NCBI RefSeq assembly: GCF_024643285.1
Contig: NZ_JAMSLW010000006.1
Location: 186,001 to 250,000 of the forward strand
Source of the DNA: Parapedobacter lycopersici
Lineage (GTDB): Bacteria; Bacteroidota; Bacteroidia; Sphingobacteriales; Sphingobacteriaceae
DNA length: 64,000 nt
Reading direction: 5' to 3'
Shown here: positions 42,566 to 53,404 of the stretch, in pieces
How the letters are laid out: the number at the start of each line of letters is the position of its first letter
Numbering within the stretch: the stretch's first letter is position 1
Translations under genes and position numbers: made by a program
Notes under the pieces: model-generated
Seen by the model: the letters and a program-made list of their open reading frames with translations, nothing else
Database searches by the model: none
What the model was told of the DNA's origin: nothing

Positions 42566-42745
42566 CAATTTTATAGCTACGGCAGGTGTATCGTAGCCGA
42601 TTTTACGTAGATTCCGCGTGACGGTTGCCCGGCATCGCGCATAGGTCGGTTCCGCACCGCATGTGCGTCTGCCCTGATACGTAGCCCAACCGTATTGCGG
42701 CGGTACTGCGTGCGGGGTGCGTCCATGTTTTTTACGGAAAAAGGT

Positions 42746-42800
42746 GGACTCACCCTGGACTCACTATGGACTCACCCTGGACTCACCCTGGACTCACGTC
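42746..42800. repeat. 11-bp tandem array (GGACTCACCCT)n
   Basis: GGACTCA starts at 42746, 42757, 42768, 42779 and 42790, giving five units with an exact 11-bp period. Three units are GGACTCACCCT; one has GGACTCACTAT and the last diverges after GGACTCAC. The period equals that of the array at 30-139, but the unit sequence differs. Confidence 0.9.
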
Positions 42801-50382: not shown

Positions 50383-51744
50383 TTATCCGGAAATAGCATT
50401 GATAATGTCGTATTGCGTAATGATCGCAATCTGTCCGTATTCGTCTTCCACGAGCACTGCCTGATTGTCTTTGTGGATCAATGAGGAAATCTTATCAATT
50501 GACGTACGGAGGTCAACGAAAGGGAAGGGAGGCGTGCTGATTTCCTGGACCTGGGCGGATTTCAGCGCAGGGTTGTCCAGCAGGGCATTCAGGATATCCG
50601 ATTCCGTGACCTTACCGATTACCATGCCCTGCTGCGTTACCGGAATCTGGGAAATATTGAGCGTTTTCATGGTGTTGAACGTTTCCTGGACGGATTGCTC
50701 CACATCGGCCATGACGAGCGGTACTTCACCCCGTTTTTTCAGGATGCTTTGCGCGGTCAGCTTTTCGTCAGCGAGGAATCCGCGTTCGCGGAGCCAGTCT
50801 TCATTGAACATTTTTCCCATGTAACGTGAGCCATGGTCGTGCAGAATAATCACCACTACATCGTTGTCGGTAAGCCGGTCGGCAAGCTGCAGTAATCCGG
50901 CTACGGCTGCCCCCGCTGAATTTCCCACGAAGATACCTTCGCGGCGGGCAATTTCGCGGGTCATTAATGCCGCGTCCTTATCGGTTACTTTCTCGAAGTG
51001 ATCAATCACCCCGAAATCGACATTTTTCGGCAGGAAATCCTCACCGATTCCCTCCGTGATGTACGGGTAGATTTCGCTTTTGTCAAAAATTCCCGTTTCC
51101 TTGTATTTTTTGAATACCGAGCCATAGGAATCGATACCCCAGACCTGTATGGCCGGATTCTGTTCCTTCAGGTATTTGCCGGCACCGCTGATGGTGCCAC
51201 CGGTACCTACACCAACCACCAGGTGGGTGATCTTTCCTTCAGTTTGTGTCCATATTTCGGGACCGGTCTGCTCATAGTGGGCCTGTGTGTTGGAAAGGTT
51301 GTCGTATTGATTGGCCTTCCAGGAGTTGGGGATCTCACGCGCCAGCCGGCTGGACACCGAATAATAGGAACGCGGGTCTTCCGGGTCGACGTTGGTAGGG
51401 CATACGATTACCTCCGCGCCAAAAGCGCGCAGGGCGTCGATCTTTTCCTTGGACTGTTTGTCCGTTGTCGTGAAAATACATTTGTACCCCTTAATTACCG
51501 CCGCGATGGCCAGCCCCATACCTGTATTGCCCGATGTACCCTCGATGATTGTGCCGCCTGGTTTCAGCAGGCCTGCTTTTTCGGCGTCTTCAATCATCTT
51601 TACGGCCATGCGGTCTTTGATGGAATTACCGGGGTTCGTGGTCTCCACTTTCACCAGGATGGTACCGCTGACGGCCTTGGTGATGCGGTTGAGCTTCACC
51701 AGCGGCGTATTGCCGATGGTTTCCAGGATGTTGTTGTACCACAT
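50383..51744 (-). CDS. Cystathionine beta-synthase / cysteine synthase with CBS pair
   Basis: A 453-residue PLP enzyme. ATG 51744 (MWYNNILETIGNTPLVKL) is correct; a 156-bp in-frame extension runs into the tandem repeat. The PLP lysine is Lys43 in NPGNSIKDRMA; EGTSGNTGMGLA and GVGTGGTISGAGKYLKE bind substrate and phosphate. Two CBS domains (about 335-453) resemble the regulatory tail of cystathionine beta-synthase. It joins serine with homocysteine or makes cysteine; the exact activity is not proven. A -7 element lies 26 bp upstream. Confidence 0.92.
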   Translation of the reverse strand: MWYNNILETIGNTPLVKLNRITKAVSGTILVKVETTNPGNSIKDRMAVKMIEDAEKAGLLKPGGTIIEGTSGNTGMGLAIAAVIKGYKCIFTTTDKQSKEKIDALRAFGAEVIVCPTNVDPEDPRSYYSVSSRLAREIPNSWKANQYDNLSNTQAHYEQTGPEIWTQTEGKITHLVVGVGTGGTISGAGKYLKEQNPAIQVWGIDSYGSVFKKYKETGIFDKSEIYPYITEGIGEDFLPKNVDFGVIDHFEKVTDKDAALMTREIARREGIFVGNSAGAAVAGLLQLADRLTDNDVVVIILHDHGSRYMGKMFNEDWLRERGFLADEKLTAQSILKKRGEVPLVMADVEQSVQETFNTMKTLNISQIPVTQQGMVIGKVTESDILNALLDNPALKSAQVQEISTPPFPFVDLRTSIDKISSLIHKDNQAVLVEDEYGQIAIITQYDIINAISG

Positions 51745-51769: not shown

Positions 51770-51777
51770 CAAAAATA
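51770..51777 (-). promoter_or_regulatory. -7 element TATTTTTG of the CBS-type synthase
   Basis: TATTTTTG on the minus strand fits TAnnTTTG and gives a leader of about 20 nt. The tandem repeats begin immediately behind it, so they flank or form the upstream promoter region. Confidence 0.55.
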
Positions 51778-51782
51778 GGAAT

Positions 51783-52347
51783 AATTGGTGATAGGGGTGA
51801 TTGGTGTTACTTTCTTCCGCAGAAAGTAACCAAAGACTCGCCGCTTGGATCTCTTGCTACAGCGGTAGTGCATCCCACTGCAAGCCGCAAGATCTCCCAT
51901 GCGGCATTTTAAGCGGAACGGAGGGCTGGTGCTTCCTTTCTCGGTAATATAACCTGTTTATTCTTTTTTCTATTTGCTACTCGGGTTTAATTGGTGATTG
52001 GGATAATTGGTGTTACTTTCTTCCGCAGAAAGTAACCAAAGACTCGCCGCTTGGATCTCTTGCTACAGCGGTAGTGCATCCCACTGCAAGCCGTAAGATC
52101 TCCCATGCGGCATTTTAAGCGGAACGGAGGGCTGGTGCTTCCTTTCTCGGTAATATAACCTGTTTATTCTTTTTTCTATTTGCTACTCGGGTTTAATTGG
52201 TGATTGGGATAATTGGTGTTACTTTCTTCCGCAGAAAGTAACCAAAGACTCGCCGCTTGGATCTCTTGCTACAGCGGTAGTGCATCCCACTGCAAGCCGT
52301 AAGATCTCCCATGCGACATTTTAAGCGGAACGGAGGGCTGGTGCTTC
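51783..52347. repeat. 206-bp tandem repeat, 2.7 copies, with nested hairpins
   Basis: Three copies start near 51783, 51989 and 52195 with an exact 206-bp period and only a few base changes; the third ends abruptly at 52347. Each copy has a perfect 10-bp hairpin (arms GTTACTTTCT and AGAAAGTAAC around TCCGC) at 51806-51830, 52012-52036 and 52218-52242. Each also has a 66-nt region (51840-51905 in copy 1) whose ends GCCGC/GCGGC and inner CTTGC/GCAAG and GGATCT/AGATC segments can pair. Copy 3 has GCGAC at the outer arm. It is not coding: the frames encode only translated hairpins. Confidence 0.92.
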
Positions 52348-52582
52348 GTCCGGCTATGGCCATGCGCGGAGGTAAACGGCCTTGAAGCATCGGGAAGCAG
52401 CGAGCAGCAACGCATGTGCAATGACGTGCGGACCAGCAATAACCAAGCGGATTGAAAAAGCGTAGCGGCTGCAATCCGCGCAATAAATGCTTTGCAATCA
52501 GCTGCAACCGGAGCTTCATAGCCTTGATTTTTTGGTTACTTTTTTATCAAGAAAAAAGTAACGCCCCCCCGGCGAGGCTAAA
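52348..52582. other. Non-coding tail of the repeat element
   Basis: Unique sequence following the third repeat copy, up to the hairpin at 52535-52562 and the poly-C run at about 52563-52569. It contains GGCTATGGCCATGCGCGG and short inverted segments, but no gene. I read it, together with the repeats, as one interspersed element bounded by GTTACTTT-type hairpins. Confidence 0.45.
52535..52562. terminator. GTTACTTTTTT hairpin after AMP nucleosidase
   Basis: A perfect 11-bp inverted repeat (GTTACTTTTTT and AAAAAAGTAAC) around a 6-nt loop. It lies 20 bp beyond the AMP nucleosidase stop and could terminate in either direction. Its ends match the GTTACTTT arms of the tandem-repeat hairpins. Confidence 0.55.
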
Positions 52583-53404
52583 TCAGAATTGCAGGTGTTT
52601 TACGGTAAGGCCGTTATTAATCAGCTGTTTCAGCGAATCAATGCCGATTTTGAGATGGGTCTCCACAAACCTGGCTGTTACGCTGGAATCGCTTTCCACG
52701 GTTTTCACCCCTTCGGGAATCATGGGCTGGTCGGACACCAGCAGCAATGCGCCTGTGGGAATCTTGTTGGCAAAGCCGACGGAAAAAATGGTCGCCGTTT
52801 CCATGTCGACCAGCATGGCGCGGATACTTTTGAGGTATTTTTTAAATGCTTTATCGTGTTCCCATACCCGGCGGTTGGTGGTGTAGACCGTACCTGTCCA
52901 ATAGTCCAATGAATAATCGCGTATGGTGGTGGAAATGGCTTTCTGGAGGGCGAATGCGGGCAGGGCGGGTACCTCCTGGGGGAAATAGTCATTCGATGTA
53001 CCTTCACCCCGGATGGCTGCAATCGGCAGCACGAGGTCGCCGATCTTGTTTTTCTTCTTGAGTCCGCCCGCTTTGCCGAGAAAGAGGACCGCCTTCGGCG
53101 CAATGGCCGACAGCAGGTCCATAATCGTAGCTGCCATCGGGCTGCCCATGCCAAAGTTGATGATGGTAATGCCTGCGGCTGTAACGCTCTGCATCGGCTT
53201 GTCGAGCCCCAGGATGGGCGCGTTGTCATGCATCTCCGAAAACAGCTTGACATAATTAGAGAAATTGGTGAGTATAATATACTCACCAAATTCATTCAGT
53301 GGCCGACTGGTATACCGGGGCAACCAGTTGTTTACGATATCTTCCTTCGTCTTCAGTCCGGGTCTAATCGGGCTTTTAACCGGTTTTATTTTCTCGTCGG
53401 CCAT
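52583..53404 (-). CDS. amn: AMP nucleosidase (short form)
   Basis: A 273-residue enzyme of the PNP/UDP phosphorylase fold that splits AMP into adenine and ribose 5-phosphate. TIINFGMGSPMAATIMDLLS, LFLGKAGGLKKKNKIGDLVLP and VDMETATIFSVGFANKIPTGALLLVSD mark the nucleoside and phosphate sites. It lacks the large N-terminal domain of E. coli Amn, as is usual in Bacteroidota. It lies 24 bp downstream of clpX and may be co-transcribed. Confidence 0.92.
   Translation of the reverse strand: MADEKIKPVKSPIRPGLKTKEDIVNNWLPRYTSRPLNEFGEYIILTNFSNYVKLFSEMHDNAPILGLDKPMQSVTAAGITIINFGMGSPMAATIMDLLSAIAPKAVLFLGKAGGLKKKNKIGDLVLPIAAIRGEGTSNDYFPQEVPALPAFALQKAISTTIRDYSLDYWTGTVYTTNRRVWEHDKAFKKYLKSIRAMLVDMETATIFSVGFANKIPTGALLLVSDQPMIPEGVKTVESDSSVTARFVETHLKIGIDSLKQLINNGLTVKHLQF

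Follow-up and report, generated by a model that had tools for sequence, protein, structure and literature searches.

Between a PLP enzyme gene and an AMP nucleosidase gene of Parapedobacter lycopersici lies an array of long, almost identical tandem repeats. What kind of element is it, and how did it come to be there? The initial annotation of the 64,000-nucleotide stretch analysed here (referred to as the window) offered three readings: a structured RNA, a regulatory array or a non-autonomous mobile element.

The array and the element that contains it

Tandem Repeats Finder reports a repeat at 51782-52347 with period 206, 2.7 copies, 98% matches, 0% indels and a score of 1097, which bears out tandem amplification. 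The repeat is real, and "exact", as it was first described, overstates it slightly: the matches are at 98% and the third copy covers only 154 of the 206 bp. All three units contain the perfect 10-bp hairpin GTTACTTTCT/AGAAAGTAAC that had been noted, and the 66-nt nested inverted structure (51840-51905 in unit 1) is likewise found in each of them, with its pairing supported by the copies of relatives. On the upstream side of the PLP enzyme gene, 38 bp separate its start codon (51744) from the array, with the promoter-like motif TATTTTTG in between, in agreement with the initial placement of the array directly behind the promoter of this gene. At 51770-51777, TATTTTTG fits the Bacteroidota promoter -7 consensus.

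The span first assigned to the feature, 51783-52347, does describe the tandem array, but the larger element was overlooked, and its right end at about 52523-52578 lies outside that span. It is the left module of this element that has been amplified in the array; the element measures about 770 bp and has a right-end module too (Table 1). The left module consists of a hairpin and a cloverleaf, the right module of two overlapping hairpins, one of which has an arm of the other as its loop, and the two modules are mutually inverted. In inverted orientation, the right-end hairpin (52535-52562) matches the unit hairpins imperfectly (76% over 29 nt). The 24-bp flank is copied in units 2 and 3 as well, therefore the amplification probably took place after insertion. 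No transposase gene was seen among the ORFs listed for the window copy, which are all short or overlap a neighbouring gene. A scan for terminator-like structures gave a single match, the hairpin at 52563..52578, against a shuffle mean of 1.3.

Table 1. Features of the tandem array, the surrounding element and the flanking genes (positions in the window).
Feature	Position	Strand	Remarks
PLP enzyme gene, cystathionine beta-synthase-like	50383..51744	-	best NCBIfam match TIGR01137, 485.5 bits, below the cut-off of 510.25
Promoter-like motif TATTTTTG of the PLP enzyme gene	51777 to 51770	-	between element and gene
Tandem unit 1	51782..51987	+	24 bp flank, end hairpin, cloverleaf, body segment
Tandem unit 2	51988..52193	+	98% to unit 1
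Tandem unit 3	52194..52347	+	154 of 206 bp; departs from the unit after 52347 and continues into the right half
Left-end hairpin, copies 1/2/3	51806-51830, 52012-52036, 52218-52242	+	
Cloverleaf core P1-P4, copies 1/2/3	51836-51912, 52042-52118, 52248-52324	+	covariance model R1: 94.1, 90 and 85.8 bits
Whole inserted element as delimited	51806..52575	+	absent in 8/8 congeners; further matches in the P. lycopersici genome; outer borders may be off by a few bases
Right half of element body	52348..52522	+	matches in the P. lycopersici genome and congeners
Right-end motif S1	CTTGAT 52523-52528 / ATCAAG 52546-52551	+	
Right-end motif S2	GTTACTTTTTT 52535-52545 / AAAAAAGTAAC 52552-52562	+	motif overall 52523..52562
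Outer G+C-rich hairpin, then T-rich stretch	52563..52578	-	terminator-like, directly past the AMP nucleosidase stop codon
AMP nucleosidase gene	52583..53404	-	NF005500, 422.8 bits, cut-off 264

Empty sites and dispersed copies

An orthologue of the PLP enzyme is present in all nine genomes of the genus that were compared, P. lycopersici included. In 8/8 of the other genomes the AMP nucleosidase gene adjoins the PLP gene and the element is absent. The gap, calculated by subtraction of coordinates with the stop codon left out, is there only 10-161 bp (10, 72, 10, 19, 14, 10, 65 and 161 bp for L050 to L057 in order), compared with 838 bp in the window. The TATTTTTG motif is found in three of these eight empty sites (L051, L056 and L057). 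A target-site duplication could not be demonstrated at any of the eight, as the flanks are too diverged.

By DNA search, the P. lycopersici genome has four more matches, spread over three other sites and 70-85% identical, and matches to the element occur in 21 of 41 genomes, P. lycopersici included. Using the cloverleaf covariance model R1, eight matches are found in the P. lycopersici genome, three of them being the array, while 20 of 151 genomes in the family have matches, two genomes from a different genus having 31 and 27 copies. Unit 1 and the C18 copy share an identical 77-nt core, and their right halves match at 70% only; therefore, the copies look mosaic. Because the copies within its own genome are diverged, the movement of the element in P. 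lycopersici may be old. The proposed genome-wide search for the unit thus finds diverged copies at other places in the genome and not a single locus. Together with the eight empty sites, the dispersed copies support the reading as a non-autonomous mobile element.

The array might instead have arisen when ordinary intergenic DNA at this site was duplicated in tandem, with no mobile element taking part. Tandem duplication as such is possible in this way, and the units do include local flank; however, the duplicated DNA has relatives elsewhere in the genome and in many others, and it is missing at the site in the congeners. The dispersed copies refute this explanation, to which we assign practically no chance.

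Fold of the left module

The left module is predicted from its covarying copies to fold as a small cloverleaf, the two main stems of which are kept paired. An alignment of 82 matches, 74 of them distinct, was fitted to the covariance model, which favours the modelled pairing. In it, 97.6% of the P1 cells and 98.0% of the P2 cells are paired; the other two helices pair in 81.5% (P3) and 83.7% (P4) of cells, with no double change in P4. The covariance analysis of relatives' copies that had been called for uncovers compensatory changes: the whole structure has 115 double-changed cells versus 30.9 in shuffles, and 0 of 500 shuffles reach 115, with the reservation that the copies are related by descent, so that these counts are not independent events. 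When the partner is slid by 1-3 columns, pairing is 24-47%, compared with 91.3% in register. In a MAFFT alignment that was not model-fitted (17 of 18 rows), P2 pairs in 145/170 cells, whereas 20,000 permutations never give more than 122; P1 is found in several paired variants.

By folding energy, one unit (135 nt) is moderately better than shuffles, with z -2.54 as DNA and -2.24 as RNA. Its minimum-energy RNA fold contains P1 and most of P2, while P3 and P4 are absent in the form drawn from relatives. Whether the loop of the left hairpin pairs with a GCGGAA further downstream was also considered. This pairing is perfect in the window and in L009 but, judged by eye, not in most other copies, and it was rejected.

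Folding as DNA or as RNA

Of the cells in the four helices, 1042 are Watson-Crick, 21 G-T, 27 A-C and 74 of other kinds. When only P1 and the inner four pairs of P2 are counted, the numbers are 644, 7, 5 and 10, respectively. In the tRNAs of P. lycopersici, 565 Watson-Crick pairs stand against 43 G-T pairs (of 40 tRNAs found in the genome, 30 served as loci, and the 29 distinct ones entered the count); their A-C count of 0, which probably stems from the ARAGORN brackets themselves, was excluded from the comparison. Since G-T pairs are scarce in the element and not preferred over A-C, the pattern suggests that the pairing is preserved in the DNA itself, favouring folding as DNA over folding as RNA. 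Rfam 15 gives no match in the window and none for the element up to E 5; on 13 other loci it finds only two tRNAs, both in L183.

These observations bear on the possibility of a structured RNA. Under this reading, a small RNA or riboregulator would be transcribed and retained for what it does as RNA, and its copies would have spread only secondarily. This would fit the strong covariation (115 double-changed cells versus 30.9), as well as the folding of unit 3 with the right half (382 nt), which beats 100 shuffles on both strands (z -3.38 on the plus and -2.78 on the minus strand). However, the helices have few G-T pairs, no more of them than of A-C, and neither the window nor the scanned element types match Rfam. 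In addition, the same site is empty in 8/8 congeners, and the gene context is not conserved among the 119 listed loci with the right-end motif. This part of the initial annotation is therefore disfavoured, and we regard a structured RNA as rather unlikely.

The right end

A script that chooses the best-pairing register listed 57 rows of candidate right ends on the fetched loci. S1 (CTTGAT/ATCAAG, the last pair of which varies between C-G and A-T) is complete in 52 of these 57 rows, among which one end is counted twice (L017 = L030) and the first L046 row is a left-type hairpin. S2 varies in sequence and is broken by inserts in a few rows. The order of S1 and S2 fits a full H-type pseudoknot, but there is no linker between their 3' arms, so this candidate was rejected. 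Because of the missing linker we judge that the two stems could not both form fully, and they are treated as alternatives. Possible resemblances are to a tyrosine-recombinase core site (11-6-11 spacing), an integron attC site and the TTGAT site of ISDra2.

The right-end pattern is found in 15 of 41 relatives, P. lycopersici included, compared with 0 of 41 for the reversed control. A scan of one genome per species gives at least 119 stretches with the pattern. Among the 80 matches listed, 73 are from Bacteroidota, 4 from Balneolota and 3 from Fusobacteriota, assigned by title and general taxonomy; the motif thus appears, among these sequence matches, to recur mainly in Bacteroidota. In several other genera a hairpin with differing yet complementary arms can be seen by eye just upstream of S1. 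With a strict test, an inverted partner hairpin lies upstream of 24/109 right ends versus 41/383 random places in the same loci.

Called genes flank 89 right ends on both sides, 56 being co-directional, 23 convergent and 10 divergent; 42 right ends too near the locus end and 5 inside a called ORF were left out of this count. Divergent gene pairs are mildly under-represented, from which we do not conclude a terminator or promoter role. As a separate observation, the right-end motif is found six times within 8 kb of a Parabacteroides MAG (L178, 1046-7364), always on the minus strand, with a similar hairpin before each and a promoter-like TTTG stretch after several.

Recurrent arrays, nested repeats and outer repeats

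Tandem units with element ends occur at four other loci. L268 (223 bp, 3.0 copies) is like the window in that the cloverleaf is repeated and there is a single right end, while in L034 (381 bp, 2.9 copies) each unit has a right end. For L269 (344 bp, 2.8 copies) and L270 (324 bp, 2.3 copies, and 474 bp, 2.0 copies) the right end was not seen in the stretch fetched. Inverted cloverleaf doublets, with the two copies on opposite strands within 200 bp, are found at six places, two of them weak.

The larger element also harbours, in its end hairpins or in A/T runs, a 45-60-nt mini-insert (CCG, a small hairpin, GAGCTCATGAACACC-like, then GAATAAA), found in both orientations. It occurs in L003 (about 1973-2017), L032, L035, L037 and L046 and, by eye, in L007, L095, L271 and many G083 loci. 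It looks like a second, nested repeat family. Beyond the hairpins, an additional outer inverted repeat (AAAGGAACGTTTTT-like) can be seen by eye in the G083 copies (L273-L285 and L305-L307), and in some places its two ends carry changes that match; a stricter search for it in G083 and G092 gave one match only.

Search for the mobilising enzyme

PF01797 (Y1, the RAYT family) is absent from the P. lycopersici genome and from 9/10 carrier genomes, including those with 31, 27 and 20 copies. It is present in 12 of the 15 relatives that have the right-end pattern, versus 10 of the 26 that do not (41 relatives in all). Element ends are near 2 of 40 Y1 loci, one of the two having been picked for its end. 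Three RAYT-like genes in related genomes carry different palindromes on their flanks, as judged by eye.

Could the copies be REP/REPIN-type repeats that are moved in trans by a Y1 (RAYT) transposase? The inverted cloverleaf doublets at the six places (two weak) and the excess of PF01797 in relatives with the right-end pattern (12/15 against 10/26) would agree with this, as would the "atypical" structures that the accessible text of PMC6006769 describes beside RAYT genes of Bacteroidetes subclass 2.6. However, the domain is missing from P. lycopersici and nine of ten carriers, the high-copy ones included, the ends adjoin only two Y1 loci, and the three RAYT-like genes are flanked by other palindromes. 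On presence, proximity and flanking palindromes, and in spite of the counter-evidence from the relatives, we reject a RAYT/Y1 enzyme as mover in most carriers and consider this explanation very unlikely. The three RAYT-like genes (L102, L105 and L106; NH[IL]H, YIHNNP) have short flanking palindromes of their own, which are possibly "atypical" repeats of subclass 2.6.

Other candidates were sought near the motifs. No linked gene family was seen among 990 ORFs within 2.5 kb of the motifs at the 119 listed loci, and the widest ORF clusters span 4 loci (25 widest clusters, judged by eye). A mobilising enzyme or an autonomous copy was found neither near the listed motif loci nor, as Y1, in 9/10 carriers. 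Two variants of the end hairpin were searched in the P. lycopersici genome and occur at element copies only.

The latter results concern the alternative of a classical MITE, with IS-derived ends recognised through their sequence by a transposase acting on double-stranded DNA. The end modules are inverted and the copies intergenic, as this would have it, and the outer inverted repeat seen by eye in the G083 copies points the same way. Such MITEs are reported from Bacteroidota, according to the accessible parts of the papers on BrickBuilt (PMC4596501) and on a Cardinium MITE from IS982 (PMC9769881). However, the two end-hairpin variants lie only at element copies, no transposase-like cluster is seen near the 119 loci (25 widest clusters, by eye), and the end stems differ in sequence among copies yet stay complementary. 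A classical MITE is, in our judgement, unlikely.

A possible origin of the array

We suggest, as the fairly probable explanation, that the array is the left module, amplified in place, of a non-autonomous, hairpin-ended mobile DNA element. The element would have inserted between the stop codon of the AMP nucleosidase gene and the region where the PLP enzyme gene has its promoter. It could have moved as folded DNA, either single-stranded or as a cruciform, handled in trans by a putative enzyme that reads the structure. After insertion, the left module and 24 bp of flank would have been duplicated in place by slippage or unequal recombination, in parallel with the units with element ends at the four other loci. 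Any effect on the neighbouring genes would be a putative side effect.

Several observations count against this explanation. The target-site duplication could not be shown, neither a mobilising enzyme nor an autonomous copy was found, P3 and P4 are the weaker helices (81.5% and 83.7% paired, P4 with no double change), and the strict partner-hairpin test gives 24/109 right ends versus 41/383 random places.

It can be speculated further, and quite tentatively, that the Bacteroidota as a whole share a class of mobile DNA whose identity lies in shape more than in sequence. Its members would have overlapping-hairpin or cloverleaf ends, stems that drift by paired Watson-Crick changes and a putative non-Y1 enzyme reading the folded DNA, and the ends would be prone to tandem amplification and serve as insertion sites for the 45-60-nt mini-element. 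We regard such a class as possible but doubtful.

Relation to known repeat elements

No description of this repeat was found in the open-access literature (most subscription papers were outside the search). By analogy, the element would work like BOX, MITE or REPIN repeats. It is MITE-like in the broad sense, with dispersed copies, empty sites and no transposase gene among its listed ORFs. In comparison with the terminal inverted repeats of MITEs, the end hairpins of the window copy are 76% complementary over 29 nt, while those of G083 are clearer by eye. As far as the accessible parts of the cited papers describe them, the nearest elements are BOX in behaviour and the BrickBuilt MITE within the phylum.

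BOX elements of Streptococcus pneumoniae are described in the accessible text as strongly folded and interspersed, with two different end modules around a module present in tandem in variable number; changes in array size are ascribed to slippage or unequal crossover, the repeats insert into one another, target-site duplications occur and an IS is proposed as mover (PMC3049150). The likeness, which is one of description and not of sequence, lies in the modular ends and the tandem module, the window and L268 having a repeated left module and one right end. In contrast to BOX, the Parapedobacter element belongs to another phylum, its end module itself is repeated, the unit is 206 bp long where that of BOX is short, and neither a target-site duplication nor an IS mover has been shown for it.

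BrickBuilt of Porphyromonas gingivalis is, in the text accessible, an intergenic MITE with a leader, tandem 23-nt repeats and a tail, has no transposase inside and carries end repeats (GAGACCTTTGCA type) that were matched to IS5-family elements (PMC4596501). It shares with our element the phylum Bacteroidota, the intergenic location, the tandem repeats and the absence of an internal transposase; however, the ends of the Parapedobacter element show by eye no resemblance to the GAGACCTTTGCA-type end repeats.

REP/REPIN (BIME) repeats with RAYT are palindromic, intergenic, arranged in inverted doublets and devoid of an internal transposase, and are thought to move as folded single strands (accessible parts of PMC6006769 and PMC3733652). 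The Parapedobacter element is likewise palindromic, intergenic and found in inverted doublets, the repeat itself having no transposase, but its modules are larger, no GTAG-type foot was noticed and the Y1 gene is missing in 9/10 carriers. The Cardinium MITE is similarly a non-autonomous element in a Bacteroidota genome; unlike ours, it derives from a resident IS982 element and is reported, in the part of the paper available, as unique to one strain (PMC9769881). The accessible text of that paper and of a MITE review (PMC10969869) treats other elements.

Bacteroidota is a large and much studied phylum, yet for this repeat neither an Rfam match nor a description was found. If the reading as folding DNA is true, the covarying copies are data already at hand with which the enzyme recognising them could be sought. 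The recurrent arrays indicate that the end of a mobile repeat can turn into a tandem array beside a promoter. Two shorter tandem repeats are also seen in the window: an 11-bp repeat, TGGACTCACCC, with 4.8 copies at 42745-42797, outside the long ORFs listed there, and an imperfect 11-bp repeat, ACTCGAACAAC, with longer multiples at 41-135.
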